This document shows positions 27,333-52,779 of a stretch of DNA of 64,000 nt, piece by piece (position 1 is the first letter of the stretch; each line of letters begins with the position of its first letter). Under the pieces are notes generated by a model that did no database searches, was not told where the DNA came from, and saw nothing but the letters and a program-made list of their open reading frames with translations. A program made the translations under genes and the position numbers. Source of the stretch: Dyadobacter luticola (GTDB lineage: Bacteria > Bacteroidota > Bacteroidia > Cytophagales > Spirosomataceae); assembly GCF_005860805.1 (NCBI RefSeq), contig NZ_VCEJ01000004.1, positions 434,001-498,000 of the forward strand, read 5' to 3'.

Positions 27333-27357
27333 TTGAAATAAGTTCAAAGTCAAACAA

Positions 27358-27397: not shown

Positions 27398-27434
27398 CAG
27401 ATCATATCAAAAAATGCAAAAATTCCCATGTTTT

Positions 27435-27482: not shown

Positions 27483-27583
27483 GAAACGGCATAACAAATT
27501 GATAGACAACCTGTTCACCGCATGGACATCTTGACTGGCAAGCGTGGTAGCTCGATATTTAACCACTTTTAAACGCTTGTGTT

Positions 27584-28804: not shown

Positions 28805-28981
28805 GGTTGTAAGAGCGAAGCGTCAATCGCGGAGGCTTGGCGTTTCGCTCATTGCAAACAGATAATACTAAACATATCATTTTGTTATACAATAAAATAT
28901 TATTTGGTTTGGGGTTATTTGAAGTATTCTATCATGTAGCACTGATCCGACGTTTAGTTACAACCATCTAAAAGTAAAACT

Positions 28982-31045: not shown

Positions 31046-31134
31046 TGTATGAAAATTAAGCGGGATTACATTATCTGAAAGTATTGAAGAGTTATATCTT
31101 TAAAGATTAACAGTTTTTTAGCTCGTGCTTTCAT

Positions 31135-32145: not shown

Positions 32146-32244
32146 AAGGAAATCCTTAATATATTATCCATACAAAATTATATCCAAAATGTTAAGGCTG
32201 ACAATACATCCTACTGCTTATTAGCACCATAATAAAAATAAAAC

Positions 32245-32904
32245 CTAAAATCTTATGCTCTTATAAGCGAGTGCCAATTCATTATAAAGCCACTTTTTAT
32301 CTTTGCGGCAGGATGGATGAAAGAAATTAATGATCTTGATACCTTCCCATGTCCCCATGCTAAAAGTTCCGGACTCCGATTTTTTAATTGGGACTTCAAA
32401 CAACTGAATGGGATAATTGTCATATCGAAAACCGCAAACAATTAGCGTTGGAGCAATTTCACGAATTTGTTGTAGCAGCAGTGAACGGCTCACTCCAATG
32501 TAGCCCCAAATCGTTTTTGGGTGAGCTTTTGCTCTACCGGCGGTCTTTTTTACGTTGATAAAGGCTATTGATTTTAAAGCTTGTTCTCGGTGATTTTTTT
32601 CTATCGCATCATATGGCGTTGAAAAGTTGTTTTCGATACCATGTGCCCACTCACTTATTCTGACCGAAAAACCCAAATGCACATGATCCTCCCACCATAT
32701 CCGGTAGTCTGCTGCATAAGTTTCCTTATTGTAGGTGTTAGGCAAGTTGTGCTCCTTGGCGATAAAAAGGATTTTTTCCCTGCTACTGAGGAATAACTTT
32801 TTGTTGATTATTCCATCTTTGATAAAAACGCCATTATAGTCTGTAAGCTTGGTTTGCGCTTCATACAATGTGCTAAAACTGTCAAAAATCGCATCATCAT
32901 TCAT
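32245..32904 (-). CDS. Uracil-DNA glycosylase-like fold protein
   Basis: A protein of 219 aa whose motifs fit the UDG superfamily. ILFIAKEHN (about residues 45-53) is in the place of the first active-site motif, AFINVKKTAGRAKA resembles the segment after it, TLIVCGF is the central strand, and FFHPSCR near the C-terminus corresponds to the HPS motif carrying the catalytic His. It is transcribed divergently from the cysteine desulfurase gene, across 222 bp. Whether it excises bases, or only binds modified or nicked DNA, cannot be told; sequence similarity is motif level only. Confidence 0.55.
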   Translation of the reverse strand: MNDDAIFDSFSTLYEAQTKLTDYNGVFIKDGIINKKLFLSSREKILFIAKEHNLPNTYNKETYAADYRIWWEDHVHLGFSVRISEWAHGIENNFSTPYDAIEKNHREQALKSIAFINVKKTAGRAKAHPKTIWGYIGVSRSLLLQQIREIAPTLIVCGFRYDNYPIQLFEVPIKKSESGTFSMGTWEGIKIINFFHPSCRKDKKWLYNELALAYKSIRF

Positions 32905-33126
32905 GATTGAGAGTAGATTATAAAATGTTGTCGTCCAATGAAATTTCTTCTACCGACACTTCAAACGTCAGCACCGACAGCGCGTTTACAATATCCACCG
33001 TCTCTACACTGACACATATTACACTTATGGAAAATAACCATCAGAACTATAAAGCGCTACAACGAATGTAGAAAAATACAATTCCATTTTCATTACATTA
33101 GTCCATTAAACTAGCCATCCTCTGCA

Positions 33127-34269
33127 ATGGATCTTATTTATTTAGACTACAACGCCACAACACCAACTGCTCCGGAGGTGATTGATGCGATGTTACCATT
33201 CTACTCCAAAATATACGGTAACGCATCTAGCACGCACAAGTTTGGAAAACAAATTAGCGAGACCGTAAAACAGAACAGAAATCAGATTGCTGAATTCATG
33301 CAATGTGATAGTAGCGAGATAATTTTCACCTCAGGAGCAACAGAGGCAATAAATTTAGCGATTATGGGGGTTGCCAATGCCTATCACCATAAAGGTCAGC
33401 ATATTGTCACTGCTAAAACCGAACATCCTGCTGTACTTGACACATGTCGATTTTTAGAAAAAAGAGGATTTGAAGTAACCTATTTATCTGTTTCTCACGA
33501 TGGAATGCTAAATGAGGAAGACATAAGGGCTGCCGTTCGTCCAGACACGATTTTGGTTGCTTTGATGGCAATAAACAATGAAACAGGAGTTGAACAACCT
33601 TTACAGCAAGCGGCTTCAATTGCTCATGAGGTAGAAGCTGTATTTTTATCGGACACAACCCAGGCTATTGGAAAAATTCCATTTTCTATAAATGATACCG
33701 GTGTGGACATCATAGTATTTTCATCCCATAAATTCTATGGTCCCAACGGCATCGGTGGGTTATTTATTCGGAAGGTATTGCCTGGCGGCATCACCCTTGA
33801 AGCATCAACGCACGGCGGTGGACACGAACGAGGCTTAAGAAGTGGCACATTAAATGTCCCTGGTATCGTTGGAATGGGGAAAGCCTTTGAACTTGCTGAA
33901 GCCCAAATGTCATTTGACGCCTTGAAGATTGTCCAATTACGAGATCATCTGGAAAGGGAATTATTAAAAATTGAAGGCACGTTTGTTAACGGCAATACTA
34001 AAAAACGCTTATATAATGTCACAAATATTTGCTTCCCTGAAATCGATGCTAATGTTTTGATAGGTCAACTTGACAATATCGCCGTATCAAATGGATCCGC
34101 ATGTTCCGCATCCATATCTGAGCCGTCTCATGTTTTGAAGGCTATGGGCCTAAATGATGACAATGCCTTGGGATCTATCAGGTTTTCTCTTGGCCGATAC
34201 ACGACAAAGGATGAAATTGAACAAACAATAGAGTCAATTAAAAATCGCATGTATGCTGTCCGGTATTGA
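33127..34269 (+). CDS. Cysteine desulfurase of the phosphorothioation system (SspA/DndA role)
   Basis: A PLP enzyme of 380 aa, the NifS/IscS class. The PLP Lys is in SSHKFYGPNGIGG, the cofactor His in TAKTEHPAVLDTCRFLE, and the sulfur-carrying Cys in SNGSACSASISEPSH. It would mobilise sulfur from cysteine for the sulfurtransferase encoded at 41544. It begins a plus-strand operon and overlaps the helicase gene by 17 bp, which ties it to the defence locus rather than to Fe-S assembly. Name by role: DndA in Dnd systems, SspA in Ssp systems. Confidence 0.9.
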   Translation: MDLIYLDYNATTPTAPEVIDAMLPFYSKIYGNASSTHKFGKQISETVKQNRNQIAEFMQCDSSEIIFTSGATEAINLAIMGVANAYHHKGQHIVTAKTEHPAVLDTCRFLEKRGFEVTYLSVSHDGMLNEEDIRAAVRPDTILVALMAINNETGVEQPLQQAASIAHEVEAVFLSDTTQAIGKIPFSINDTGVDIIVFSSHKFYGPNGIGGLFIRKVLPGGITLEASTHGGGHERGLRSGTLNVPGIVGMGKAFELAEAQMSFDALKIVQLRDHLERELLKIEGTFVNGNTKKRLYNVTNICFPEIDANVLIGQLDNIAVSNGSACSASISEPSHVLKAMGLNDDNALGSIRFSLGRYTTKDEIEQTIESIKNRMYAVRY

Positions 34270-36478
34270 GTTTCCAAAAAGTGAAGAGTACCGAACAGGA
34301 ACGGAGAACGAGCCATTGACCTTTTACATGGAGTCCTTGATGGAAAGCACTAGGCTTGATCTTCTATTAGGTTATTTTAGTTCATCGGCAATTAGCGTTT
34401 TATCCCTAGGGTTCGCAAAATTTATCAGTAACGGTGGTAGGGTAAGGTTTATTATAAACCATGTTTTATCCACTTTTGATAAAGCTGCTCTTGTACATGG
34501 TACAACAGCAGACATTGATAGCTTTGAGTATTCCGTCCAAGACTTTAAAAGATTAAGGGAATCATTAGATAGTTATGGCATCCACTTCTTCGAATGTATT
34601 GCCTGGTTGATTTCGGCTAATCGAATTCAGATACGGGCAATAAAACCAGTAGGGCGTCGCGGAATAGCTCATTACAAATCTGGAATTTTTTATGATGATT
34701 CGAGCAAGGTTAAATTCAGGGGATCCTGTAACTTCACAGGATCAGGATTACTTGAAAATTTGGAAGAATTGGACATCAAAGTCTCTTGGAAAACGGACGA
34801 GAACATTTTTTCAGAGTACGAATTCGACTATAATCAGATTTTTGACGGTCTTACGGACTATGCTGAAATTATTCCATTTGAACAGATAGAGGAAGTCATA
34901 ATTCGTGAGTATGGTGGGAAAGACTTGGATGAATTACTTGTAAATGAACAAAATTTAGTATTATTAAAAGCCAAAGAAATTAAGAGTAAGAAGCATCAAC
35001 AAGCAGTATTAAAGATTTTGGAAAATATTAAGAAATACCTCATCACACCCCGTTTTCCATATGAAAGTGGCCCGAGGGATTACCAAAAAGAAGCTTATCA
35101 AAACTGGGTCAACAATAATTACCAAGGTATTTTTGCCATGGCTACTGGCACGGGCAAGACAATAACTTCCCTGAACTGCGTTTTGAATGAATCACTTCAG
35201 ACAAACAACTGCTACCAAGCCGTAATTCTAGTGCCGACCACCGTTTTGTTGACACAATGGATCCAAGAAGTTAAGAAATTTAATTTTGGGGAAATAGTTA
35301 CGGTGTCGTCTGAAACCAAGGACTGGCAGGCTCAATTAAGTCGTATAACTTCTCAGCTTAGTTTTGGAGTAAATGTCTCGTTTATAGTTATCGTAACATA
35401 CAAGTCGTTCACGAAGGCGCAGTTTCAAACATATTTTAAAAAGCTTCCGTCTTCAACAATTTTACTAGCGGACGAAGCTCATAATATTGCATCCCCGGCT
35501 GTTTCTCGTTTGCTTGAAAGCATACATCTTAATAAACGTATAGGGCTTTCAGCAACTCCTAAACGCATTTATGATCCTATTGGATCTGAACATATGGAAA
35601 TCTTTTTTAACGATAAAGAACCATATGTATACAACTTCTCAATGGAACGGGCCATTAATGAAGGAATACTTTGCCCTTACTACTATTACCCAAAGGTTGT
35701 AAGTTTGACTTCGGAGGAGATGGAAGTCTATTCAGAAATTTCTAATAAGCTTGCGCGACTCTATGCGAGAAATGCTCATGAAGCCACGTCATCCAAACAA
35801 ATAGAAATGCTTTTAATGCAGCGCAAACGGATAATCCATAAAGCGCAAGGAAAACTAGCAGCTTTTGAATCCATTTTGTCTGAGATTATAAGCGAACGCG
35901 GACAGATAGGTTATACTTTGGTATATGCACCAGAAGGCTATTATGAGGATAGCGAATTTGACAATGATACATTTCCTGAATTTACCGATGAAAACCGAAT
36001 TATTGACTTCTATTCTACAATAATTCGAAGAGTTTCTCCACTGACCACCTTAACCCAATACACCAGTGAATCCGCTGACAAAGATTTAGTTTTGCAGCAA
36101 TTTGAGCAGGGTCAGGTCAATGCACTACTTTCAATGAAATGTTTGGACGAAGGAGTTGATATTCCAAGGACTGAACAAGCGATATTCTGTTCAAGTACGG
36201 GTAATCCAAGGCAATTCATTCAAAGACGCGGTCGCATTTTAAGAAAGCACCGGGACAAAGGATTTGCATACATTTATGATATGGTGGTTATACCAAGAGT
36301 AGATCCAAATAGTCCTAGCTTTCAATTGGAGAGAAAACTCGTTCGAAAAGAACTAGAACGAGTGGTACACTTTGCATTTCTGTCCACTAACAAATACCAA
36401 GCTACACAAACCTTTTGGGAAATATGCCAGCAATATAATCTCAACTTGGACACCATCCACTTAGACCTAACCTCCTGA
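34253..36478 (+). CDS. PLD-nuclease / DEAD-box helicase fusion (candidate SspF-type effector)
   Basis: A protein of 741 aa. Residues about 1-200 form a phospholipase-D-type nuclease domain with one HKD motif (IAHYKSGIFYDDSSKVKF, RGSCNFTGSGL). Residues about 275-740 form a superfamily 2 helicase: Walker A MATGTGKTITSLN, DEAH in ILLADEAHNI, motif III GLSATPKR, motif VI QFIQRRGRILRKH. The start overlaps the desulfurase gene. In a PT defence locus this should be part of the restriction side that attacks unmodified phage DNA, as reported for SspFGH; the match to SspF itself is inference. Confidence 0.85.
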   Translation: MLSGIEFPKSEEYRTGTENEPLTFYMESLMESTRLDLLLGYFSSSAISVLSLGFAKFISNGGRVRFIINHVLSTFDKAALVHGTTADIDSFEYSVQDFKRLRESLDSYGIHFFECIAWLISANRIQIRAIKPVGRRGIAHYKSGIFYDDSSKVKFRGSCNFTGSGLLENLEELDIKVSWKTDENIFSEYEFDYNQIFDGLTDYAEIIPFEQIEEVIIREYGGKDLDELLVNEQNLVLLKAKEIKSKKHQQAVLKILENIKKYLITPRFPYESGPRDYQKEAYQNWVNNNYQGIFAMATGTGKTITSLNCVLNESLQTNNCYQAVILVPTTVLLTQWIQEVKKFNFGEIVTVSSETKDWQAQLSRITSQLSFGVNVSFIVIVTYKSFTKAQFQTYFKKLPSSTILLADEAHNIASPAVSRLLESIHLNKRIGLSATPKRIYDPIGSEHMEIFFNDKEPYVYNFSMERAINEGILCPYYYYPKVVSLTSEEMEVYSEISNKLARLYARNAHEATSSKQIEMLLMQRKRIIHKAQGKLAAFESILSEIISERGQIGYTLVYAPEGYYEDSEFDNDTFPEFTDENRIIDFYSTIIRRVSPLTTLTQYTSESADKDLVLQQFEQGQVNALLSMKCLDEGVDIPRTEQAIFCSSTGNPRQFIQRRGRILRKHRDKGFAYIYDMVVIPRVDPNSPSFQLERKLVRKELERVVHFAFLSTNKYQATQTFWEICQQYNLNLDTIHLDLTS

Positions 36479-36480
36479 AT

Positions 36481-36714
36481 ATGTTACAAATTGAGCTGAT
36501 TAAGTCCTTTTTAAAAGACGATGAAATACAAAAGAAGTACGGTCTCACTCCAACTGACGTTGATCAGATGTCGATGACCAGCAAATTCTCACTAGAAACA
36601 CAAACTTTCGTCAATTTAGTCACACAAATGGTCAAGGAAGTAGAAGATCAAAATACGACAACTAATTCCGCTGCTGCTCGTCTAAATGCTCATCTTGAAA
36701 ATGCCCTTCGATAA
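36481..36714 (+). CDS. Small 77-aa protein in the PT effector operon
   Basis: An acidic, probably helical protein, starting 2 bp after the helicase stop and ending 2 bp before the next start, so it is co-translated with both. No family is recognised; it does not look like DndE (no RHH/ion-channel-like DndE motif). By position it may be the small subunit of a three-gene effector (SspG position), which is inference only. Confidence 0.7.
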   Translation: MLQIELIKSFLKDDEIQKKYGLTPTDVDQMSMTSKFSLETQTFVNLVTQMVKEVEDQNTTTNSAAARLNAHLENALR

Positions 36715-36716
36715 AT

Positions 36717-38933
36717 ATGTTAATCCGGAAAATCAGCATAAGCAATTTTATGTGCTATTACGGCACAGAAAATAACTTCAATTTTGTTGAAGGTCTTAAT
36801 ATCATTCTCGGCGCAAACGGATATGGCAAGTCAAAACTATATGATGCTTTCCAATGGGTTTTTAACAATGGGATAACAGACACTTCTCCTCGTTCCATAC
36901 CAGGAGGCTTGAAGACAACAAATCTGGTCAAAGGAGAACTGATATCAGAAAAGGCAAGAGTAGAATGTGAAATTGGTAAATTCGTTGAAACCAAAGTAGT
37001 GATAGAAGTAGAGAACGTCCGTAATGGATCATTGAAACAATATCAATTAATAAGAACTTACGGCATTCAACGCTTGGATGAAAAAACCTGGATTGAACCG
37101 GGATCAAGCGAATTCCAGATATTAGAATATGACATAATTTCATACAAGCCAATCCCGGACAATTTGCATGATGAAGTCCTAGACAGACTTATTCCCACAG
37201 ATGTTCGTCCGTATTTGTGGTTCCAAGGCGAACGTGGAATAAGTAACCTCATAGACACGTCAAGTAACGCATCTTTAAAAGTTGTAATTAAGCGTCTCTC
37301 AGACATTGATCGTTGGGAAGAATATATTCGTGTAGCAGAAAAGGCTCATGAATCCGCCAGAAGCGCTTTTGACCAAGAATTAAAAAAGTCTCAGAAAGAC
37401 CGGGCAAAGATTATCGAATTACAAACAGAACAGAGGCTATTAGAGCAAGATGTTCGTCAAATAGAGCAACAAATTACCAATGCCTCTCAAAATCAGCAAC
37501 ATGCGCAAGAAAAGAAAGATTCTCTGTTGGCCAGCATTGAGTTTGCTGAAACAATAAATAAACTCATCAAAGAGAGATATAAAGCTGAAACATCCTATAC
37601 AGCGGCAACGAAGCAATCAGACAGCTTTGATGAAATTCTAAGCAAATCCCTGTTTAATGACAACTGGGTATTGATGAACACATCATTTTTAATTGAAAAG
37701 TTTGAAGAAAAACTGACTGCTTATGATGACGTTGTAGCCGATCGTAAGTATCAGGCCAACCTAACAAAGCAAGCAGCTGAAAAACTTCAAGTCCGACTTC
37801 CGGAAAACGTTCCCGAACCCATGTATGTGCGCTCAATGATGGAAAAGGAACATTGTTTAGTTTGCGATCGACCTGCACCACGAGGTACTGATGCATTCAT
37901 TGCGATAAACAGCTTATTAAAATCGGAGCCAGAAATAATTCCAACCGAAAAACAACGTAAAAATTTAAGACCGTTTTTTAGGCACTATTATCAGGCTGGT
38001 TTGGGGATGAAGTATAGTATCGATACTATTCCAGAAAGAGTACAAAAATCGATACTGCAACAAAATTACATTCGAGAGAATGTTAGAACTTTAAAAGACG
38101 AGCTAGATTCCAAAATACGAGAGCTCCAACAACAAGAGCAGCTAAGCGGAATAACAAATGCCCGGGACATTGTAAATTCAATGAATATCGCGGTGGACGA
38201 TATTCAAAAATATGAAGGTGATTTAGTTACCGATATGAACAAAAAAAATCAAAAAGAAAGTCGCTTAAGAGAAATCAATGATATTTTGGCACGGTTATCA
38301 GAAGGACAGGTACCACCTCATTTGACCAAAAAAAAGGCCATTCTTTTTGATCTAGTTGAACTCACTAAAAGAATTAAGAAAACAAAGTATGAGGAGCTAG
38401 TACGGCAACTTGAAGATACGGCAAATCTGCATTATAAAAATATCAACGCTCCAACAGGAGCATTTTATGGCCGTATTCGCTTTATAGACACAACAGATGG
38501 TGGTTACCGACCAGCAATTATTGATAATGATAGCAAAGAGGTCGGAAATCTAAATACATCTCTTGTCAGCTCGTTAAAATTGTCAATTGTTATGGCAATA
38601 GTGTCAGCTAACAAAACCAGAAATTACGCATCATACTATCCATTAATTTCAGATGCACCAGTATCTGACTTTGATGTTGTAAAATCCATGACTTTTTTCA
38701 AAGAAACGGCAAATACTTTTACACAAAGCATTGTTATTGTAAAGGAATTACTGATTGAAGACGATAGTCGGGATGGTCGCTACAAACCGGATATGGACCG
38801 TCTAGTAGAACTGAAAGAACAACTGGAACTAAATAGTAAAGAATTGAACGTTTACCAATTGGATATGCCTGACGGTATCGCTAATTCTTTTAGAAACGAA
38901 ATCGAAGTAACAATTCAAAAAATTAAAATATAA
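36717..38933 (+). CDS. SMC/Rad50-like ATPase of the DndD type
   Basis: A protein of 738 aa. The N-terminal ATP-binding half has Walker A IILGANGYGKSKLYDAFQ, the coiled coil runs from about residue 215 to 600, and a zinc-hook-like CLVCDRPAP lies at about residues 379-387. The C-terminal half has a Walker-B-like region (SYYPLISDAPVSDFD). YLWFQGERGISNLID resembles the GE-containing segment of DndD. Such ATPases detect or process DNA in Dnd/Ssp systems. Because the sspBCD genes are separate here, this protein more likely belongs to the effector side (SspH position) than to modification. Confidence 0.8.
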   Translation: MLIRKISISNFMCYYGTENNFNFVEGLNIILGANGYGKSKLYDAFQWVFNNGITDTSPRSIPGGLKTTNLVKGELISEKARVECEIGKFVETKVVIEVENVRNGSLKQYQLIRTYGIQRLDEKTWIEPGSSEFQILEYDIISYKPIPDNLHDEVLDRLIPTDVRPYLWFQGERGISNLIDTSSNASLKVVIKRLSDIDRWEEYIRVAEKAHESARSAFDQELKKSQKDRAKIIELQTEQRLLEQDVRQIEQQITNASQNQQHAQEKKDSLLASIEFAETINKLIKERYKAETSYTAATKQSDSFDEILSKSLFNDNWVLMNTSFLIEKFEEKLTAYDDVVADRKYQANLTKQAAEKLQVRLPENVPEPMYVRSMMEKEHCLVCDRPAPRGTDAFIAINSLLKSEPEIIPTEKQRKNLRPFFRHYYQAGLGMKYSIDTIPERVQKSILQQNYIRENVRTLKDELDSKIRELQQQEQLSGITNARDIVNSMNIAVDDIQKYEGDLVTDMNKKNQKESRLREINDILARLSEGQVPPHLTKKKAILFDLVELTKRIKKTKYEELVRQLEDTANLHYKNINAPTGAFYGRIRFIDTTDGGYRPAIIDNDSKEVGNLNTSLVSSLKLSIVMAIVSANKTRNYASYYPLISDAPVSDFDVVKSMTFFKETANTFTQSIVIVKELLIEDDSRDGRYKPDMDRLVELKEQLELNSKELNVYQLDMPDGIANSFRNEIEVTIQKIKI

Positions 38934-39431
38934 ATGCAAACTATTTTCGACCGATTCGAAAAAAAAGATCCTCGATATCCAATACGATTTATTGGCTTAA
39001 TCGATCGACTAGCTCGAAAACGGGCATTTGATACGTCGCTAGGCACAGAAGAAGAGAAATATTCACAAGGCAAGATTTTCGCAAACTACTATGAGTGTTT
39101 TATATATGCAACCATTCTTGGTATACGTAAAGAGTATAGAATTCCGTTTAGCCGCGCAACCGAAGGCGCAAAATTTCTAACGATTGAATCTTGGAGACCA
39201 AGGGAACTGGTCGAGTATATATTTATGTCATTGTTGGTGCTCTCAGACATAAATTTTGCTGATTTAGAGGAGCTAGACGAAAAAGAGACTGATGACAAAG
39301 CTCTTGATCTAATTCGTCTTATGGAAGAATATGCTAACGGAGGATTTGATTTGATGCAGTCGAAACTAGCCGATGAGCCTCAACTATTTGAGGATCCATA
39401 TGGGGCCGTAAGTTTCTTAAACACTCTCTAA
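38934..39431 (+). CDS. 165-aa protein closing the PT effector operon
   Basis: It starts directly after the stop of the ATPase gene. The sequence is helical and charged (DPRYPIRFIGLIDRLARKRA, FANYYECFIYATILGIRKEY). No family is recognised. It makes the effector operon four genes beyond the desulfurase, one more than the three of SspFGH. It ends 10 bp from the convergent kinase gene. Confidence 0.65.
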   Translation: MQTIFDRFEKKDPRYPIRFIGLIDRLARKRAFDTSLGTEEEKYSQGKIFANYYECFIYATILGIRKEYRIPFSRATEGAKFLTIESWRPRELVEYIFMSLLVLSDINFADLEELDEKETDDKALDLIRLMEEYANGGFDLMQSKLADEPQLFEDPYGAVSFLNTL

Positions 39432-39441
39432 ATTTCATTAA

Positions 39442-40389
39442 TTAGGCTACAGCGTATCTTTTTGCGATATCACCCATAAACAAATCAATCATTTCTCTGT
39501 CAGCTCGTTTTTCTTTTGAGTATCTGAGCATCTCTTTGATTAATGTGAAAATATCATCCTTATGAACAATTTCACAAATAAAGTCATCTAATTCAAGTTG
39601 ACCAATTGGGGTATTACCTTGAAAGATAAACCAGAATAGCTTGCCTAACTGGAAAATATCCGATTTATCATCTATAACACAATCAAAACCGATATTTGCT
39701 TTCTGAGTCAACAGCTTATTCATTGCTTCGGGAGATAACCAACCGATGGGCCCGATCCGCTCACCGATATCATCGTAATCCTTTTCTCTATGCGCGACTA
39801 TTCCAAGATCACATAATTTCCAAGTAGCAGTTTCACCACCTTTAAATGATAAGAGTACGTTATCCGGCTTAATATCTCGATGATAATATCCTTCATCGTG
39901 CAATTCCTTTATCGAATTATAGATATCTAAACATAATTTAACCTTTTCAGAATCGTCCAAATTGTTATTCCCAAGTATATATTCTTTTAGGTCAGTGTCA
40001 GCCTTTTCCATAACGTAGTAGGGAAAATCTCTATTATCAACATTAATTACACCATCAAATTCTATCTGGATTATGTTTTGTTTACCCTTCTCTTTTAATT
40101 CTCGTAAAACAAAAATCTCGTTCATAAATCGGCCATGACGTCTCTTAACATGAGGGCTAGCGTTCCTTCCAGGACTCGAATAATTGCAAATTTTAATAGC
40201 AAAATCAGCATTCCTTCCACTAGAATCTCTTAATGCATATACATTTGAGTTTCCCCCTTTTGAAAATTTAAATTCAGAAGATAAATATTTAAGATGGTAT
40301 CTAGTGCCATCGTTCACTATTTCATTAAGCTCATCAACAAGCTCCCCGCCAACCTCTGATAAAACTAATGAGCGATCTCGAAATTCCAT
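39442..40389 (-). CDS. Hanks-type Ser/Thr protein kinase
   Basis: A kinase of 315 aa from ATG 40389, which lies one base after the stop of the DUF262 gene (a longer 337-aa form overlapping it is possible). The glycine loop is FSKGGNSNVYAL, the ATP-binding Lys is in FAIKICNY, the catalytic loop is YYHRDIKPDNVLLS, the Mg motif is CDLGIVAH (DLG for DFG), and GPIGWLSPEAMNK fits the activation segment. There is no transmembrane or PASTA region, so it is cytoplasmic. It is last in the sspBCD-DUF262 operon, suggesting phosphorylation of a component of this system or of host targets on infection. Confidence 0.88.
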   Translation of the reverse strand: MEFRDRSLVLSEVGGELVDELNEIVNDGTRYHLKYLSSEFKFSKGGNSNVYALRDSSGRNADFAIKICNYSSPGRNASPHVKRRHGRFMNEIFVLRELKEKGKQNIIQIEFDGVINVDNRDFPYYVMEKADTDLKEYILGNNNLDDSEKVKLCLDIYNSIKELHDEGYYHRDIKPDNVLLSFKGGETATWKLCDLGIVAHREKDYDDIGERIGPIGWLSPEAMNKLLTQKANIGFDCVIDDKSDIFQLGKLFWFIFQGNTPIGQLELDDFICEIVHKDDIFTLIKEMLRYSKEKRADREMIDLFMGDIAKRYAVA

Positions 40390-40390
40390 T

Positions 40391-41524
40391 CTAAAACAAA
40401 GTTCTACCAGTTGAAGATATGAGAGAAGATACTTTGATAGGCCAGTAGCCTTCAATTTCAGTTAAATCATCGTTTGTTAGTTCATAAAAATTTAAAGCAT
40501 CCATTATAACAAGATTTGCGTCTTCATCTTCCTCAGACTTACTTAGCGGTACCGAATCCGAATTTTCTAAAAGCTTTGCAAAAAATTCCGACCTAGCGTC
40601 CCGAGCCTTTTTTGAATTTGACTGGCTCACACAATTGTCCGCATATTCTTTAAATGAATAACACTTTTCATTGGTAGGATAAATATCTGGACCAATTAAA
40701 ATCAATATCTTATAAAAATGATCCAAAGTCTCCCCGGTGAGTACCCTATTGTTGTCTAAAAAACCGAAAAGAGTATAAAAGTCACTTCGCTGCTTATACC
40801 GAGTTTTCTTTATTGGATAAATAGAGTTAAACCTTTGCAAATGCAATAATATGTCAAGAAATCGTTCTTCAAGTTCACGACTCTTTGATTCAGAAAAATC
40901 CTCATCACCATAAAATTGTTTATCTACTTGAATCTTTTTGTCTGTGTTACCTAATAATAGTAAGGTTAACAACTCAGTTACTAAATCTGTGTGGTTTAAT
41001 CTATTCAAAGATGTTTCGCTAAATATTTGCAGAGACTCGAAGTCAGGGTGGTCAGCTAATTTCTCAGCCAATATCTGCTGTGGCGTGGAAGAATATTGCG
41101 CTTTTAAAATTTCTGGCCGATTTAGTTTAATTCCTGAGGAATTTACACGATAATAGAAGTCCTCAATTTCTGATTTACTAGAATTCGAAATAACATAGAC
41201 TGCAATCTTGTAATCTTGATAAAAAAAAGATTTGTCAACTGTCTCAATCGTTTCTTTTCCGTCGTCCGCAAAAAATCCATTATGGTAGCCCAAAATTGTC
41301 CTAGTCCTTTGCTGTCCATCGACAATTTCAAATGTATTATCGTCATTTCTGTAAAAAAAGAATGCTGGTAAAGGATAGGACAACTTAATTGAACCAATTA
41401 ATTTCCTTTTCGCATTAGCAGACCAAATATCGCCTCTTTGATAAGGAGGAGCTAAATTCAGCGAACCAGACTCATATAAGTCAATTAATTGTCTAATGGT
41501 CCAAGATTCGATAACAAAATTCAT
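40391..41524 (-). CDS. DUF262 protein without nuclease domain (SspE-like N-terminal half only)
   Basis: A protein of 377 aa. The DUF262 domain fills the N-terminal half: IRQLIDLYESGSLNLAPPYQ, RGDIWSANAKRKLIGSI and the DGQQRTRTILGY motif (ParB-like nucleotide-binding fold). SspE and GmrSD proteins combine DUF262 with a DUF1524 HNH nuclease, but here no HNH motif is visible in the second half, which is helical. In SspE, DUF262 senses PT marks and hydrolyses nucleotide. It is 19 bp downstream of the sspD-like gene and followed after 1 bp by the kinase gene. Confidence 0.82.
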   Translation of the reverse strand: MNFVIESWTIRQLIDLYESGSLNLAPPYQRGDIWSANAKRKLIGSIKLSYPLPAFFFYRNDDNTFEIVDGQQRTRTILGYHNGFFADDGKETIETVDKSFFYQDYKIAVYVISNSSKSEIEDFYYRVNSSGIKLNRPEILKAQYSSTPQQILAEKLADHPDFESLQIFSETSLNRLNHTDLVTELLTLLLLGNTDKKIQVDKQFYGDEDFSESKSRELEERFLDILLHLQRFNSIYPIKKTRYKQRSDFYTLFGFLDNNRVLTGETLDHFYKILILIGPDIYPTNEKCYSFKEYADNCVSQSNSKKARDARSEFFAKLLENSDSVPLSKSEEDEDANLVIMDALNFYELTNDDLTEIEGYWPIKVSSLISSTGRTLF

Positions 41525-41543
41525 TATATTTAATTTACATCAC

Positions 41544-42650
41544 TTAAATAAAACAGCTAGCACATCCCTCACCCTCAGCCTCATTGAGAATGTCTAATAG
41601 GTACGGTGATTTTGACTTATGAGCAATTCTTGCAGTTCTTTTCAAATATTCTTCTTTTATTGCTTGCATCCGAGCAGGCTTAATTAAATCTTCAAGTCTC
41701 TCGTTGTCGTTCCAAGTATAGCCGTCCTTTTCGTATGCAACTGCTTTCAAAAAGCGATCAGGATGTTGTTCATACAGCCAAATCCATTCTATTTTTTGCT
41801 GATAAAAGCAAAAATAACAACCAGATCTACTTCTTGAATATTGCCCTACTTTACCGTTTAGGTCGAAATCAAGTTTATTATAATAGGCAGGTACGCCAAC
41901 CCCACTTTCTTCTAATAATTTAAAAATATCTTCTCTGATTAAAACGTCCTCATTATCAACCAGGGGAAAGGTATTCTCTTCTGACAAGGGATAACTAGTT
42001 TGCTTTAAAAACGAAAATATCAACTCATTAAAAAGCCTAACATCGACATCTAATAAAATATTTGTTTTCTGGGTTTGAGTAAAATTGAATGAAATTGGTT
42101 TCAGCAGCAATTCTCTAAATCTAACTTTTGACGGTGTATATGATAATCCATCAAACTGTTCAATCAACTTCACGAGGTTGTTATTTGTAAGCGCTTTGCC
42201 AATTACATCCTCGCTCCAAATGTTCTTGCGAAACGGAAAAATAGACTGAATATTTGGCTTTTTAGATATGTAACCTTCCCTATCCTCATCCCCCCGGATG
42301 CCAACATATGAAATTACAGGGTCATTGCCAACGAATTTTTCAAAAGGCTCAAGTTTAAGTTTTTTCGTACACCACCTCGAATTAGCTGAAGGCAAGAAGC
42401 CTCCATACAGGTCCAAATAATGGTCAAACGGATCCTGCGTACTTTGATTTGCTGCTTGAAGAAGCTCTATTGTCTTACCAAGATAAACTTCTAGATTTTT
42501 TATCAATTGATATGTCTCTTCCAATTCTTTCCCCGTATCACAGGTATAATATTCAATGTCGAGCTCGGGATACAAATTGCGCATGTATATTGCCAGAGCA
42601 GCACTGTCCTTTCCGCCTGAAATTCCTAGAAGGTGTCTTACTTTTGTCAT
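41544..42650 (-). CDS. DndC/SspD-like phosphorothioation sulfurtransferase
   Basis: A protein of 368 aa of the PAPS-reductase/N-type ATP pyrophosphatase superfamily. The P-loop is LLGISGGKDSAALAIYM. Cys pairs occur in GCYFCFYQQKIEW and at the very end (GCASCFI), with another Cys in SRWCTKKLKLEPF. DndC-type proteins activate DNA phosphate with ATP and insert sulfur delivered by the desulfurase. The start overlaps the stop of the ATPase gene by 4 bp, so translation is coupled. Cys-rich ends fit Fe-S or sulfur relay; this is known for DndC, inferred here. Confidence 0.88.
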   Translation of the reverse strand: MTKVRHLLGISGGKDSAALAIYMRNLYPELDIEYYTCDTGKELEETYQLIKNLEVYLGKTIELLQAANQSTQDPFDHYLDLYGGFLPSANSRWCTKKLKLEPFEKFVGNDPVISYVGIRGDEDREGYISKKPNIQSIFPFRKNIWSEDVIGKALTNNNLVKLIEQFDGLSYTPSKVRFRELLLKPISFNFTQTQKTNILLDVDVRLFNELIFSFLKQTSYPLSEENTFPLVDNEDVLIREDIFKLLEESGVGVPAYYNKLDFDLNGKVGQYSRSRSGCYFCFYQQKIEWIWLYEQHPDRFLKAVAYEKDGYTWNDNERLEDLIKPARMQAIKEEYLKRTARIAHKSKSPYLLDILNEAEGEGCASCFI

Positions 42651-45600
42651 TTCCTAAGCAATTCTTTTAAAATATTAGTTAGGGCCGCGATGTTAACGAC
42701 GTCATCACCGACCTGCAGTTGTTCCCGAATAAATTTTTCAACTTGTAACACCTGCTTTCTTTTGCTAGCTGGCATTCTTACCAGATCTGTACTTATACCA
42801 TCAACAAAGGAAGAAATTTCAAGACTAAATACTTCTTCCTTTTCACCGTCCCACTCCTTCTCAGAAATAGTAGTCAAATTGTCTAGATCACGAACAGTTC
42901 TCCGCAGCTTGTCGTATAGTTGAAGTTCGTCATTGTCTCGGAAAATATCAAGCGATTTACCGATGACTGCCTGAGCCATTGAATTTAACCAGGCTTTACG
43001 ATCATCTAACTGAGAGTCAAGCCTTTGTATAAAAGCCTTTTGATTAGCTAGAAGCATGTGTCTTTTCAAGTTCTTATACCTCGATTGTAGTCGCAGCTTA
43101 TAATCCTCAAATTCAATTTCTTCTCCTATAAATTCATTAATAATAAATTCTTCAAAACGACTTACAAGATTGTCATAACATGTTCTGATCTCTCTAATCG
43201 CTTCTTGCAAGTGAGAAATATAAGCTTGAAAATGCTCTTTGGTAGTAAGAATTGATCCAAAAGAGTATCCCAATGCCTGTGGGAAATCCTCAAAAAACGT
43301 TTTTTCAGGTTCCTTTGAGTTAATAATCGCCTCGCGTACCGCAATAGCCTCTTTGCTTAGTCTTTTCGTGTTCTTGGCATACTCAGGTAAATCTCGATAA
43401 AATTTTAGAAACGGTTTAACTGTTTCAATGAAAACCTTATTACTAAAATGAAGTTGAGAACCCTGGCTAAGCAAATGGCGATAACTATTGAACAAATCAA
43501 GTTTAACTCCGTCTAAGTCAAACGCCTTGACATCATATTTTTGGGGATTTTTGACGATTAGCTCAAGAATATCGGAACTAATATCAGGAACGTAGGTTCC
43601 TTCTTCAAAAAGTGCAAAATCGTTCCTAGTCAAAAACAAAAACGTAGGAACCCAGAAATCTATCAGACCTTGCTTTAATTTAAATGGCCTCTTCGATAGC
43701 GTTTCTATAAATTCTGCTACTGATTGCTTTGATTGCTTTGATTCAGCCAAAAATTTAATTGAGGAATTCCATAAAGGTTTAAACGAAGAATTTTCTCCTA
43801 TTACAGGAATATTATCTGCGTCTTCCAAATTCAAATTGAGTCCATTCTCCTTGATTAGAGTCAAATAGATGGTTTTCTCAGGAGGGAATCGATCTTTCTC
43901 AAATCCCAAATCCGGTTCATTCCATTGCGATACTAGACGTTGCAAAAACATTTTTTTTGCACTTCCGATAGACGCAGAAATTTTATGCCTATTAACCAAC
44001 TCATTCTTAAACTTTGGAGTATCACTGTAAACGTTGTAGCATACCTGGGACAGCAATTTATTAAGATCCCGTTGACTAAAAACCTCCTTTGACTCTCCCT
44101 TAAAAATCCAAGTAACTTCATTGCGGAAATGCCCGTCCAGAATATAATGGTTCAGAAGATTCTTCTGATGGTCCATTACATTATTAAGCTCTCGTATAGC
44201 TACTTTGTCATCTGGATTTCTATCTATGACTTTTTGTGTTTTTTCGATTTCAAAAAGCTGCTCTCGAATTTGCGCTGTATTTTGATAGTATACGTACACT
44301 ATGGCTTCGTGCTGCGTAGAAGAAAATATTTTAACATCATCGATAGAAAGTGATTTACGGAAGATGAGATTCAAATAACCATCAATTTCTCCCTTTGGCA
44401 CCGTACTAATTGGTTTCTCTGAGATCCAGTACTGGAATGAGCGAGGTGTTCCATTTTGATAAGAGTACATCTTTGCCAAAACAGGTGGAAGTTGATAATG
44501 ACGTTGAAGCAGTGTTGTAACGTCTCTAATTTCATCAACATCATTCCCCGCTTTTCGGAGCGCCAATTGAATGTCTAGATCAGTACCTTCATTCGGCACA
44601 AATCGAGCATTATGTATTCGATATAGGATTATCTTGCGTTGGGTCAGGCTTGCAATCATCGGAGAGACGTCCGCAAGACCTAAACACACCTCTCCATATT
44701 TAACGAGGAAAGATTGATCCAAAACAGCACTTTTTGGCATAACTAGGCTTAAAAGTCCAATAACCTTGATAAGCTTCTCATAACCATCCAAGTTCTCAAC
44801 GAAAGACCGTTCTACATTCTCCAACGCCGATCGCATACCCATCCATGCTAAATAATCAGGATTGTCTTTGGAATTTAGAAAGGAGTAAAAGTTGAACGTT
44901 AAATAGTCGTATATGTTAGCAACATTATAAAATGGGTTGTTTTTCGTAATACGAACTTTACTTAGTCCTGTATGGTCCGTTGATTGAAGGAAAGAGAATA
45001 GTGACCTCTCATTTTGACCATATCTTTGAAGTGCTAATGTTAGAACAGTAGCACTCAACAAATCTAGTGGATACAACCTATCAGCAATTTCAGGAGCTAC
45101 CGCCTTATCTATTTTTAGAGCAGATGTACTTAAAGCAATTCTTTGAGCTTCTCTTATATTACTAATAGCTTTTAATTCAACTGGATTATTATTACCTTCT
45201 AAATGTTCAGCTACAAGTAATAATAACTGTTCAACTGGTTCATTAAATGTTATTTCCCTAAAACGGCCTTTTACTTTCGACCACTCTTTCCGCTGCGAAT
45301 CAGAAAGAGAAAAGGAATATGCATCAAAGTTTTGGTGAACTGTGCTTATTAGACATATATTTTCATCTGAATTATTGACAAATTCAGTTAGTTGCTGAAT
45401 AAAATACAGCTCCTTTTCAGGAGTATTCTGTGCCGCATATTCAAGAAACTTGCCAAATTCATCAACAACAATTATCAATATTGCGTTTCTTGTTCCTAAG
45501 TCATAATAACAATTATAAATCTCTGAAAGAATCTTTTTTGAACTAATGTCTCTAATATCAAAATGATCTGCAAAAGCTTCGATTAGCGACTTATATTCTC

Positions 45601-45871
45601 CAACAAAATTTATTATTTCAACTGTCGGATCGGAAATTAAATTTATGTCGAAAAACCTTTTTTTATTCCTTAGAGTTTGTTCTAACGCCCATAAGAATGA
45701 AGATTTACCAGTACCATAAGATCCTATTATGTTAAAGGAACGATTGCCCTTTTTAAAATCACTCTCTATCTGACGAACAGCCCTTTGAGCATTAGGTGTT
45801 GGATAGTATACCAACTCCCTTTCAGCATCGCGAATAATGTTTACTGACGGAGTGTAGGTATTACTGCTCAT
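42647..45871 (-). CDS. Large P-loop ATPase (SspC-like)
   Basis: A protein of 1074 aa. Walker A is FNIIGSYGTGKSSFLWALEQ (about residues 47-66), Walker B LIIVVDEFGKFLEYA (about 132-146), with a sensor-like NICLISTVHQNFDAYS. The remaining 800 residues are helical with charged coiled-coil stretches near the end (residues about 900-1040). In SspBCD cassettes the middle gene encodes an ATPase that provides energy for PT modification. It overlaps the DUF4007 gene by 11 bp and the sulfurtransferase gene by 4 bp, so all three form one translational unit. Confidence 0.8.
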   Translation of the reverse strand: MSSNTYTPSVNIIRDAERELVYYPTPNAQRAVRQIESDFKKGNRSFNIIGSYGTGKSSFLWALEQTLRNKKRFFDINLISDPTVEIINFVGEYKSLIEAFADHFDIRDISSKKILSEIYNCYYDLGTRNAILIIVVDEFGKFLEYAAQNTPEKELYFIQQLTEFVNNSDENICLISTVHQNFDAYSFSLSDSQRKEWSKVKGRFREITFNEPVEQLLLLVAEHLEGNNNPVELKAISNIREAQRIALSTSALKIDKAVAPEIADRLYPLDLLSATVLTLALQRYGQNERSLFSFLQSTDHTGLSKVRITKNNPFYNVANIYDYLTFNFYSFLNSKDNPDYLAWMGMRSALENVERSFVENLDGYEKLIKVIGLLSLVMPKSAVLDQSFLVKYGEVCLGLADVSPMIASLTQRKIILYRIHNARFVPNEGTDLDIQLALRKAGNDVDEIRDVTTLLQRHYQLPPVLAKMYSYQNGTPRSFQYWISEKPISTVPKGEIDGYLNLIFRKSLSIDDVKIFSSTQHEAIVYVYYQNTAQIREQLFEIEKTQKVIDRNPDDKVAIRELNNVMDHQKNLLNHYILDGHFRNEVTWIFKGESKEVFSQRDLNKLLSQVCYNVYSDTPKFKNELVNRHKISASIGSAKKMFLQRLVSQWNEPDLGFEKDRFPPEKTIYLTLIKENGLNLNLEDADNIPVIGENSSFKPLWNSSIKFLAESKQSKQSVAEFIETLSKRPFKLKQGLIDFWVPTFLFLTRNDFALFEEGTYVPDISSDILELIVKNPQKYDVKAFDLDGVKLDLFNSYRHLLSQGSQLHFSNKVFIETVKPFLKFYRDLPEYAKNTKRLSKEAIAVREAIINSKEPEKTFFEDFPQALGYSFGSILTTKEHFQAYISHLQEAIREIRTCYDNLVSRFEEFIINEFIGEEIEFEDYKLRLQSRYKNLKRHMLLANQKAFIQRLDSQLDDRKAWLNSMAQAVIGKSLDIFRDNDELQLYDKLRRTVRDLDNLTTISEKEWDGEKEEVFSLEISSFVDGISTDLVRMPASKRKQVLQVEKFIREQLQVGDDVVNIAALTNILKELLRK

Positions 45872-46754
45872 AATAATTAGCTAAAATTAAAAGTGGATCA
45901 GGCTTCGATTTAAATGATATTTCTCGGATACCGGCTTGGTCGCTAAAGACAATTTCAGGAAATCTCTGGGCTATACTTTCGAGCTTTGTATAAAGACTCG
46001 TTGCATTCAATGCAAATACACTTCCCACTTGGTTAGGTTCCGTAAGTAAAGTGTTAAAGTTTACAGATTTATTAAAACCTCCGGTTGTCATCATTCCATA
46101 CAATACTATTTCATCCGGTAAATTACGTCTATCAGTATTCTCTATCACGAAAGTATCCTTGTCACGTGGAGATACATTCATTAGGTCCAATTCTGTTAGT
46201 AAACCGGAAAACCCTTCTTCTCTATCTTTGGACTGTGCAATCGATCGGTTATACATCTTTATAAAGACTCCAAAATCGTTCAATACCGTGCCGTCATTAA
46301 TTGTAATTTGAAGTATTTCTGCTTTCCGTTTTACGAATGTTAAAAAATTGTCTTTCGTAAACTCTATCTTATCCCTTCGTAGCTCGTTAAATATCAAGGC
46401 GTATGCCGATGCCTTTCCACTTGTAACAAGCTGAAAATGAAGGAGCCACAATGTCCCAACGTCTTCTAAATAAGGATCCCAACCATTGTCGCTCAACAGA
46501 AAATCTGCCAAGTCAGTAGTTTTATCATCTAAGGTCAACAGATTAAACGCTTTCATCCAATATCGGATAGCGTTAACCATGTTTTTTCCGACACCAAGCT
46601 CTACAACAGCATCTTCGTCGTTGAAAGACTTATTCATTTTTACATAATCAAATCCTTTCTTAAGCCATAAATTTCGGCATTGAAAAGACTCGTGCCCCGC
46701 AAAGGCCATTTTATTAACTTGCGACAAGGAACTAACATCCTTTCTTTCAGCCAC
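45861..46754 (-). CDS. DUF4007 protein (SspB-like)
   Basis: A protein of 297 aa carrying DUF4007 over most of its length: MAFAGHESFQCRNLWLKKGF at the start, then VVELGVGKNMVNAIRYWMKA and VGTLWLLHFQLVTSG. DUF4007 is the family of SspB, reported to be a nickase needed for single-stranded phosphorothioation in SspABCD. It is the first gene of the minus-strand operon sspB-sspC-sspD-DUF262-kinase. No separate promoter is assigned; 186 bp separate it from the recombinase gene upstream. Confidence 0.85.
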   Translation of the reverse strand: MAERKDVSSLSQVNKMAFAGHESFQCRNLWLKKGFDYVKMNKSFNDEDAVVELGVGKNMVNAIRYWMKAFNLLTLDDKTTDLADFLLSDNGWDPYLEDVGTLWLLHFQLVTSGKASAYALIFNELRRDKIEFTKDNFLTFVKRKAEILQITINDGTVLNDFGVFIKMYNRSIAQSKDREEGFSGLLTELDLMNVSPRDKDTFVIENTDRRNLPDEIVLYGMMTTGGFNKSVNFNTLLTEPNQVGSVFALNATSLYTKLESIAQRFPEIVFSDQAGIREISFKSKPDPLLILANYYEQ

Positions 46755-46940
46755 TTTCTACTTCTGTTAAATTATTAGTATTGTTGTTATTACGAAGATA
46801 ACATAACCGAATATGATTCAGCACATTTATTTAGATCAGCGCAGTCTCGTAATTGGAGTATAATCGCAGTGCGGATAATAACTATTTTATCATCAAATTT
46901 TCCGACGCATTGATTAATAAATTATCATTTGAACAACAAT

Positions 46941-47543
46941 CTATTCCCTTTTAACCCGAATCCAGCCCTCAATTTCTATCCCCTCATGCCGCAAATAGTT
47001 ATAAAGCGTTGTCTTGCTACCAATCTTTAACTGCTCACAAATTTGATTTGTAGTATATTTCTTACTTTGATATAAGGTTGCTGCTAAGCCTGCGAGCTCC
47101 TTCGATTTCTTTGTCAGCCCTTTTGGTCTGCCTCCCACCCTACCGCGAGCACGGGCAGCTTCCATTCCTGCCAAGGTACGTTCCATTAAGATCTCTCGTT
47201 CATTTTCCGCGAACACTGAACTGAGCATATACCAAAGGCGACCCATTTTGGTAGAAGTGTCAATACCCTCAGAAATACTCCGGAAGTCTACTCCCATTTC
47301 TTTCCATTCTACCATGAGCTTTATCAGCTCATAAGTTGTCCGGCCTAAGCGATCAATTCTCCAAACAACTATCACATCTCCTTTTCTAAGCTCCGAAATC
47401 ATCCTTATATATTCTGGCTTTTGCATTGAGGCTCCGGAAACCTTTTCATGATAAATTTTCTCGCAACCTGCTTTTTTAAGGGAGTCAAATTGTAGGTCTT
47501 GGTTCTGCTCAGTCTTTGAAACCCGTATGTATCCAATCACCAT
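46941..47543 (-). CDS. Serine recombinase (resolvase/invertase)
   Basis: A small serine recombinase of 200 aa. The catalytic Ser is in GYIRVSKTEQNQDLQ, further residues in VVWRIDRLGRTTYELI and AENEREILMERTLAGM (Arg cluster), and a C-terminal helix-turn-helix in KYTTNQICEQLKIGSKTTLY. It could resolve dimers or invert a segment. As a second recombinase inside the element, it may mark a nested insertion joining the PT module to the RhuM/mob half. No crossover site pair was found by eye. Confidence 0.9.
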   Translation of the reverse strand: MVIGYIRVSKTEQNQDLQFDSLKKAGCEKIYHEKVSGASMQKPEYIRMISELRKGDVIVVWRIDRLGRTTYELIKLMVEWKEMGVDFRSISEGIDTSTKMGRLWYMLSSVFAENEREILMERTLAGMEAARARGRVGGRPKGLTKKSKELAGLAATLYQSKKYTTNQICEQLKIGSKTTLYNYLRHEGIEIEGWIRVKRE

Positions 47544-47979
47544 TCAAATAGTACAATTTAACGTGGTAGTTCGCAATATACAGTAATTTGTTTTGGTGTA
47601 CCACTAATCTGTAATTTGAAAGTGGCGAAAACGGCACTTTTCAGAGCTAAAAGGGAAGAAAAATCGAAAGGTCACAGAGTACATAAAAGCCACCGTTTTC
47701 CTAAAGGTATAAAGCAGCTACTTTTTAGGAGTCCAAATTCTTTAAGGTAGTCGTATCCTTGATTCAAGTCGCGGCAAGCTGCTTTGGGTACCATGCTAAA
47801 AATCCACCTTTCCCGTAGCAAGCGTATGGTTCCTTAAAAAAGGTTTCCCGTGTCTGCCCTCTGTTGTTCTTGGCCATGGGTCGCTGCTGACTAAATCTCG
47901 GCGGTTAATAGTCACAACCCTTCTATACGCATGTTGGTCTTCCCACATTTATTGTACAGATTATTTTTAAATTCGTTTA
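47544..47979. other. Gene-free stretch between recombinase and RhuM-Fic genes
   Basis: 436 bp with no convincing gene. It should hold the divergent promoters of the two genes. A/T-rich tracts (GAAAACGGCACTTTTC-like local symmetry near 47625-47642) are visible, but I see no clear terminator, RNA or crossover site. Confidence 0.5.
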
Positions 47980-48942: not shown

Positions 48943-49032
48943 ATCTCCTTTTTTTTCCTGGAGATTTAAGAAACCAATAGGCTCTGGCAGCAACGCTGAT
49001 TAGGATAAGTAGTTTTTGCCCATATTACCAAC

Positions 49033-50184: not shown

Positions 50185-50795
50185 CATCAACCAGAAAGGG
50201 GGTGGCCACTTAGACCTTAGTATATGAAGTGATTTATCACCGTACTCCTCGACTGACAATCATTAACATCGTCTTTATCAAATTTTCCAGCAAAATCAGA
50301 ATTATAAAAAAAAGATTGCGAAATAATAAAACTGTCTGGCCATGGATAAGAAAGCGTTTTACCAAACCTATAGAAAAGTTCTAGAAAGGTTACCCGCATG
50401 ACTATTCAAGTAATTTAAAATGGCAGTCTCACACAAACTCAAACATTTTCAAAAATTCTCGAACAAACACAAACATTCTCGAAGTTTTTCGACCATTCTC
50501 GAACAAACACAACTTTTTTCGAACAGACAAACGTCAGCCTAAAACGCTTTCGATCCTAAGGCAAATTTACACAGGATAGGTAAATCCCATTTCAATAAAC
50601 TAGATTCACAAATCGGCTCAGCACACGGTTTCAGATACTTTGAAATCCAAATGAGCCGCCTGCTTTGCGCGTCTGGCCAGATGTACGATTGTAATACAAT
50701 CGCCGGTTGCTGCGCACCCGATCTGGCCTTCCCCTCCAAAGTCGGTCCAGGTTTGTGAAGGAGTTTTTAATGTTTGAAGTGTAGATAGGATCGTG
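50185..50795. promoter_or_regulatory. Candidate oriT / control region upstream of the mob genes
   Basis: A 611-bp gene-free stretch. ATTCTCGAACAAACACAA occurs at 50455-50472 and 50495-50512 (40 bp apart), with further TTCTCGAA and TTTTTCGAAC variants between and after. A 17-nt palindrome, CGATTGTA-A-TACAATCG, lies at 50686-50702, about 94 bp before mobC. Iterons plus a palindrome just upstream of mobC are where MobP-type elements carry oriT. No nic site is identified. Confidence 0.45.
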
Positions 50796-52447: not shown

Positions 52448-52470
52448 CTTATTGCATATTTACGCTCGCA

Positions 52471-52773: not shown

Positions 52774-52779
52774 CCATAT

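Follow-up and report, generated by a model that had tools for sequence, protein, structure and literature searches.

The window considered here is a stretch of 64,000 nt from Dyadobacter luticola (GCF_005860805.1, contig NZ_VCEJ01000004.1, positions 434,001-498,000, forward strand). It contains a ten-gene defence locus of the Ssp phosphorothioate (PT) type, which is predicted from its genes to put sulfur on the DNA of its own host. Two neighbouring genes of this locus encode a DUF262-only protein and a Hanks-type protein kinase. This DUF262-kinase cassette is a real, recurrent accessory of Ssp-type PT defence; it is apparently undescribed and most likely serves signalling. The reading in which the Ssp system would have two outputs, a PbeABCD-type arm and the DUF262-kinase cassette, in which a DUF262 switch would gate the kinase, has in our judgement an even chance of being correct.

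The minus strand carries sspB, sspC, sspD, the DUF262-only gene and the kinase gene, in this order, and the plus strand carries sspA and four further genes (Table 1). The original prediction, made by a model from the letters of the window, had described two convergent sets of ten genes in all as an Ssp-type locus. The translations and profile scans with PADLOC (2.0.0), Pfam and NCBIfam, which covered nine of the ten proteins (the 77-aa protein was left out), find every gene where it had been placed, and the matches to SspA, SspB, SspC and SspD support the type. The genes needed for Ssp modification are present, with sspB, sspC and sspD in one operon, together with a cysteine desulfurase. The stop codon of the DUF262 gene ends at 40391 and the ATG of the kinase is at 40389, which leaves a single base between them, as predicted. 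The 315-aa start of the kinase is a choice: the mechanical open reading frame (ORF) is longer, with 337 aa and a TTG start codon that lies within the DUF262 gene. Scans for promoters and terminators found no more signal than in shuffles.

The pair is found in many other genomes. A scan of genome contigs confirmed at least 253 relatives of the DUF262 protein, the best 80 of which were used: in 22 of these 80 loci, an ORF of the kinase family lies directly downstream on the same strand, with near-zero spacing (from -52 to +13 bases between the called genes). In a 23rd pair locus (L070) the kinase follows two small ORFs, and in L082 the contig breaks off within what appears by eye to be a kinase N-lobe, so that the pair is truncated. 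L066 and L068 duplicate L013 and L015, whose contigs they share. If a kinase anywhere within three ORFs is allowed, there are 24 loci, the extra one (L134) being a generic DUF262 protein with a non-adjacent kinase, which was set aside. A gene for SspB, C or D is present within the sequence fetched around DUF262, at most 10 kb per side, in 22 of the 23 pair loci, versus none of the 56 loci scored as kinase-less, which include the truncated L082. The exception among the pair loci, L088, matches PbeA at the extreme end of apparently the same contig and has no SspD match in its genome. In the five Firmicutes loci, whose fetched sequence lacks sspD, an SspD profile match (E 1.2e-14 to 6.5e-12, frames of 575-588 aa) lies 0.9-2.6 kb past the edge of the stretch.

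The pair loci belong to Bacteroidota (Runella, Mucilaginibacter, Hymenobacter, Dyadobacter, Winogradskyella and others), Elusimicrobia, Firmicutes (Schaedlerella, Oscillospiraceae, Lachnospiraceae, Clostridiales, Ruminococcus) and Proteobacteria (Rhodocyclaceae, Mesorhizobium, a Bathymodiolus symbiont). Eight plasmid records contain a DUF262 match at E<=1e-20, and four of them were inspected: an annotated protein kinase comes right after DUF262 on the Asticcacaulis and Pseudanabaena (cyanobacterial) plasmids, while an IS1380 transposase follows on the Sphingopyxis plasmid and a 206-aa protein on that of Glutamicibacter. No phage-borne relative was confirmed among 21 pattern stretches from IMG/VR. 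The search that the original prediction had proposed, for sspBCD loci where a DUF262-only gene precedes a kinase gene, finds them in several phyla; the pair also occurs on a cyanobacterial plasmid, and the kinase is conserved beside the DUF262 gene. Within the order, DUF262 relatives at E<=1e-15 turned up in 10 of 291 genomes, and all ten were inspected. Seven have an adjoining kinase relative, directly after sspD in six cases; the seventh locus (L016) has only an sspD fragment, near a contig end. The three weakest relatives (30-32% identity) are accompanied by neither kinase nor ssp genes. At the phylum level, SspC is matched in 22 of 395 genomes, and among the 21 inspected (G046 was left out) the pair follows sspD in three, namely the window, L047 and L053.

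Another type of neighbour is seen in L084 (9848-11707), L086 (9947-11691), L087 and L149 (12001-13699), where a stand-alone DUF262 gene precedes a protein of about 206-230 aa with an R-N-x-x-x-H motif. It is a separate, effector-like neighbour, and the stretches seen contain no ssp genes. By eye, we take these proteins to resemble HEPN RNases (Pfam E 0.059 in one of them).

The 377-aa DUF262 protein stands alone, as had been claimed, with no GmrSD_C match (E<=0.1). In the genome of the window (6.4 Mb in 14 contigs, completeness 99.98), PF03235 is matched once, by this very gene, and there is no match to PF07510/GmrSD_C (DUF1524) in a search that was positive for 6 of 14 control genomes. As far as profiles can tell, this speaks against an SspE completed by a nuclease encoded elsewhere in the genome, which the original prediction had named as a finding that would speak against it. 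The N-terminal DUF262 domain of SspE with its DGQQR motif (D69-R73) is present, and its C-terminal DUF1524 HNH nickase is found neither in the protein nor in the genome. The N-domain of the structural model resembles SspE (6jiv, 7drs), a likeness returned solely by a second-look aligner: a profile search of the PDB gave no SspE at E<=1, and Foldseek gave no match at E<=0.001. The helical part (133-377), which was not predicted alone, has no clear fold match in the second-look alignment. The positions T241, R242, Q245, P283, A295, C298, N303, R308 and R311 of this part are present in all 33 members of the pair family, versus no more than 12 of the 56 other DUF262 proteins at any position, and none of the 56 for P283 and C298. 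Such a signature fits a surface dedicated to a partner; a separate family would by itself also give it.

The kinase model (pLDDT, predicted local distance difference test, of 91.5) resembles solved protein kinases. No variation is seen among the 29 aligned kinases at K66, E91, H170-R171-D172, K174, N177, D194 or G196. The protein thus has the fold and the catalytic K, E, HRD and DxG of Hanks-type kinases, and it is predicted, from sequence and model, to be active. In other classes, independent searches added no member to the kinase family: matches at E<=1e-25 occur in 46 of 369 and 302 of 391 genomes, and the only strong matches are the seed genomes (1.4e-79 and 1.7e-86), the next best being at 4.2e-32 and 7.1e-36. 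The weaker matches, most of the listed ones in long open frames, are read as other Hanks kinases and were not accepted as members. Another search, with matches in 3 of 395 genomes, all beside DUF262-sspBCD, was rejected as circular because all three kinases were in the profile.

That only the N-terminal half of SspE is encoded, the nuclease half being absent in the protein and genome searches, could indicate a split or decayed SspE, in which the DUF262 gene would be a relic of sspE and the kinase, unrelated to it, would be carried along as a passenger in the island. This is very improbable because both genes are conserved: the pair is kept over several phyla with close spacing, the catalytic residues do not vary and the helical C-terminal part is maintained.

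By order and size, the plus-strand genes at 34253-39431 are a PbeABCD-type module (PbeA, 984 bits). The first is a PLD-helicase which PADLOC recognizes as PbeA, and the order and sizes of the next three fit PbeB, PbeC and PbeD, with a weaker match for PbeC, a match under the cut-off for the PbeD-like protein and place alone for PbeB. SspFGH was ruled out as the identity of these genes, which PADLOC finds to be Pbe-like. The original prediction had the positions of the plus-strand genes right and did not name the PbeABCD-type identity. By gene content, the locus is an Ssp-Pbe hybrid in which a restriction-type arm is present. Since this arm is in the same locus, the kinase is not a simple replacement for the SspE nuclease, and the claim that it takes the place of a missing restriction part is not supported; elsewhere the pair coexists with PbeABCD, SspFGH, a GHKL ATPase or a Mza-like set. 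PbeABCD together with DndCDEA is reported to halt virus replication in an archaeon (PMC6459918), and a later survey places PbeABCD among the CxC systems and argues that it cuts DNA (PMC10853773).

Table 1. Genes of the defence locus and mobility genes of the window (positions in the window)
Feature	Position	Strand	Basis
sspA, cysteine desulfurase (sulfur donor)	33127..34269	+	PADLOC SspA 504 bits, DndA 500 bits
pbeA, PLD-like/SF2 helicase	34253..36478	+	PADLOC PbeA PDLC02706, 983.9 bits over 12-728; ResIII/DEAD; PLDc_2 at E 0.012
Small 77-aa protein, pbeB place	36481..36714	+	translation; homologue at the same place in L012; place-based only
pbeC-like SMC/ABC-type ATPase, C-x-x-C pair mid-protein	36717..38933	+	PADLOC PbeC 76 bits; AAA_23; C-L-V-C in translation
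165-aa protein, pbeD place	38934..39431	+	TIGR04062 (DNA phosphorothioation-associated protein 4) 43 bits, under curated cut-off of 74.25; no PADLOC match
Hanks-type protein kinase, 315 aa	39442..40389	-	Pfam Pkinase 78.7 bits; K66, E91, HRD 170-172, D194 intact
DUF262-only protein, 377 aa	40391..41524	-	DUF262/GmrSD_N 84 bits; ParB/Srx-fold domain 1-132, DGQQR 69-73; helical part 133-377; no HNH domain seen
sspD, PAPS-reductase-like	41544..42650	-	PADLOC SspD 307.5 bits
sspC, large ATPase	42647..45871	-	PADLOC SspC 1443 bits
sspB, DUF4007	45861..46754	-	PADLOC SspB 345 bits; Pfam DUF4007 256 bits
Tyrosine integrase	27584-28804		
Serine resolvase	46941-47543		
Relaxase	51173-52447		

Among 32 pair rows, 24 include one of four partner modules within the fetched sequence. 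A PbeABCD-type module accompanies the pair in the window, L012, L013, L014, L067, L072, L074, L077-L080 and L085, a GHKL ATPase of about 815 aa in L015, L047, L053, L064, L065, L070, L071 and L075, a Mza-like set of GHKL protein and helicase, whose name rests on 49 bits to MzaB, in L069 and L076, and SspFGH in L081 and L148. The rows with no partner label are L016, L017, L063, L073, L083, L088, L093 (with a PbeA relative in the stretch) and L146. On a tree inferred from the concatenated alignments of DUF262 and the kinase, at least eight changes of partner are needed. In three of nine genomes searched (G281, Dyadobacter CY261 and Runella MFBS21), the pair and ssp genes are found, and searches for PbeA (E<=1e-50) and for GHKL relatives (E<=1e-20) were negative. 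GmrSD_C is likewise matched in none of them, and SspF gave no match in them in a search run without a positive control. G281, a single-contig genome of the same genus as the window, has SspABCD and the pair with no PbeA, GHKL or GmrSD_C match (Mza-like partners were not searched for). Its locus (L017:4273-13116) is a minimal SspB-C-D-DUF262-kinase set with a convergent sspA and an integrase nearby. Runella MFBS21 is the weakest of the three cases because a gene for a YhcG-type nuclease is nearby.

Other genes are seen around these loci. A YhcG/DUF1016 PDDEXK nuclease gene (31135-32145) adjoins the locus of the window, and a relative lies near the pair in Runella (L063:8003-9040). Members of the GHKL family of about 815 aa are encoded beside sspBCD in L015 (5896-8364), L047 (2675-5098), L053 (2723-5176), L052 (2053-4506), L064, L065, L070, L071 and L075. 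Three of them are 56-61% identical to the first and four scanned members have no PADLOC family match; this ATPase is a candidate for a further PT partner. In a metagenome-assembled genome of Rhodocyclaceae (L081:1105-12179), SspF, SspG and SspH are directly followed by the DUF262-kinase pair; SspH, and weakly SspG, of this locus score also to mad8 and mad7 of MADS. In L014 (6867-8348), an Mrr-like nuclease gene lies between the kinase and sspA.

Correlations of distance matrices, limited to Bacteroidota, replace those computed over all phyla, which were discarded as confounded by phylum. The distances of SspB and SspD follow those of SspC (rho 0.82 and 0.75, respectively), and those of DUF262 and the kinase are correlated with each other (rho 0.45, n=21, p 0.001; 0.46 with SspC held constant, n=18). 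Against SspB, C and D, no significant correlation is seen for either DUF262 or the kinase (rho between -0.13 and 0.21), and there is no correlation between DUF262 and PbeA (0.09, n=9), the kinase and PbeC (0.17, n=8) or the kinase and the GHKL ATPase (0.06, n=7). Within Bacteroidota the two genes have a history in common, one that sspBCD does not detectably share. We read the pair as a transferable two-gene signalling cassette which would move between Ssp loci.

Several results weigh against the two-output reading. The pair is missing from 18 of the 21 SspC loci inspected and is thus not essential to Ssp. The lack of correlation with SspB, C and D fits a shuffled cassette but weakens the case for a tight physical link to SspBCD. 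The partner label is not independent of the tree, eight changes comparing with a shuffle mean of 10.4 (18 of 300 shuffles give eight or fewer). A target in the effector of Pbe loci is favoured by the distances of the kinase and PbeA, which are correlated (rho 0.49, n=9, p 0.003), though those of the kinase and PbeC and of DUF262 and PbeA are not. The motifs that SspE requires, P-x-Y-Q-R and DGQQR, are present in the DUF262 protein of the window, but P26, Q29, R30 and DGQQR occur in 56 of 56 DUF262 proteins of other groups, and Y or F at position 28 in 55 of 56 (the kinase-linked duplicates L066 and L068 being left out). These motifs are generic for DUF262 and prove nothing on PT sensing, and the argument from their conservation was rejected. 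When positions are counted along the sequence, no conserved residue corresponds to K40 of SspE.

The correlation with PbeA would be expected if the kinase switched the neighbouring restriction module on or off, as a safety catch for PT-poor self DNA or as a trigger, and the pair would then be the regulator of PbeABCD in the window. In a subset of DndFGH systems, the restriction protein DndF is described as carrying a fused serine/threonine/tyrosine kinase domain (PMC10853773), and multisite phosphorylation by a phage kinase is reported to disrupt DndFGH (PMC11662687). Such a role, which agrees with the frequency of the partner modules, is nevertheless unlikely, in view of a single cassette that accompanies four different modules, with none found in G281 or Dyadobacter L073, and of distances that follow neither the GHKL partner nor PbeC.

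The pair could instead regulate PT modification itself, a role proposed for DndB in Dnd systems: DUF262 would sense the level of nucleotide or of PT and the kinase would tune SspBCD, which are the feature common to most pair loci. DUF262 and DndB are assigned to one superfamily (PMC10853773, PMC11662687). DndB is encoded beside SspBCD in two loci that lack the pair (L051:12328-13581 and L052:5053-6300), but the Asticcacaulis plasmid (L146) has an annotated DndB plus the pair. As the distances of DUF262 and the kinase do not track those of SspB, C and D in Bacteroidota, we regard this role as doubtful.

From the composition, conservation, folds, intact catalytic residues and modularity of the cassette, we infer an input through DUF262, an output through the kinase and a common target. 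The DUF262 protein would be a ParB-fold nucleoside triphosphatase switch like the N-terminal half of SspE, the GTPase of which is reported to drive the switch of that protein (PMC9646914, PMC13251355). It may read infection, or the self or non-self state, around PT-marked DNA and gate the adjoining kinase, the two acting as a pair. The pair accompanies at least four partner modules, and sometimes none was found; the substrate is therefore most likely one common to all these cells rather than one restriction module, either a host protein (with growth arrest or a block of phage take-over as the outcome) or an Ssp protein. Tentatively, the cassette might be an effector branch of its own, with a phosphorylation output gated by the sulfur state of DNA, able to work with no nuclease, as in G281, for which no known partner was found, and a second line beside nucleases elsewhere.

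A survey counts 2,211 of 2,678 sspBCD loci with neither SspE nor SspFGH and suggests further counterparts (PMC8092258). The DUF262-kinase cassette is a concrete and bounded candidate for part of these loci. If it signals by phosphorylation, bacteria would have a route that leads from an epigenetic mark of the DNA backbone to the phosphorylation of proteins, and the phage kinase reported to disrupt DndFGH would have a counterpart. Loci like that of G281, with five genes and sspA, make the question directly testable. PADLOC 2.0.0 has no model of the pair. No account of a DUF262-only protein with a kinase in Ssp loci was found in the literature covered (supplements excluded, subscription papers and preprints mostly outside), in line with the novelty that the original prediction had supposed.

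The whole defence locus is likely carried by an island integrated at tRNA-His (27311..57092). Indeed, a 22-bp direct repeat is found at 27311-27332, the 3' end of the tRNA-His gene (27258-27332), and at 57071-57092, and the integrase, resolvase and relaxase of Table 1 lie between the two copies. The island also encodes a 687-aa protein (28982-31045) with no Pfam match at E<=0.001.

The locus resembles several known systems in part. With SspABCD-SspE it shares SspA, the SspBCD marking genes and the DUF262 fold with DGQQR, but no DUF1524/HNH half is matched, a helical C-terminal part being present instead, with a kinase gene next to it. DUF262-HNH effectors are described in the literature as SspE and DndI; DndI of IscS-DndBCDE-DndI has the HNH nuclease in the same chain, unlike the DUF262-only protein of the window. 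The likeness to SspABCD-SspFGH of Vibrio anguillarum FF-93 lies in SspBCD and in the same DUF262-kinase pair beside SspFGH in L081 and L148; the genome of the window gave no SspF match, in a search without a positive control. Neither "kinase" nor "DUF262" occurs in the main text of the FF-93 paper (PMC8092258). The best PADLOC match of the DUF262 protein is NsnA (101.7 bits over residues 7-196), which we take to belong to the Menshen system; no Nsn partner is found among the locus proteins scanned, the kinase and ssp genes being in their place. The kinase best matches mad6 (92.6 bits) and PD-T4-6 (90.8 bits) in PADLOC. It shares the Hanks-type fold with other kinases of phage defence, namely MADS Mad6 (a comparison based on PADLOC/NCBIfam names), PD-T4-6, the DndF-fused kinase and PglW of BREX type 2; the kinase domains of the last two have been described (PMC10853773, PMC12839542). 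In the window, it is a separate, short kinase paired with DUF262, and the locus proteins scanned include no methyltransferase, PglZ or DndF domain. Among these nine proteins, Mad likeness is limited to the kinase, and neither PglZ nor BrxL (BREX type 4) is found, the rest of the genome not being searched in either case. DndCDEA-PbeABCD of Haloterrigena jeotgali shares the order A-B-C-D, strongly in PbeA and weakly in PbeC and the PbeD place; the window differs from it by SspBCD instead of DndCDE and by the additional DUF262-kinase cassette.

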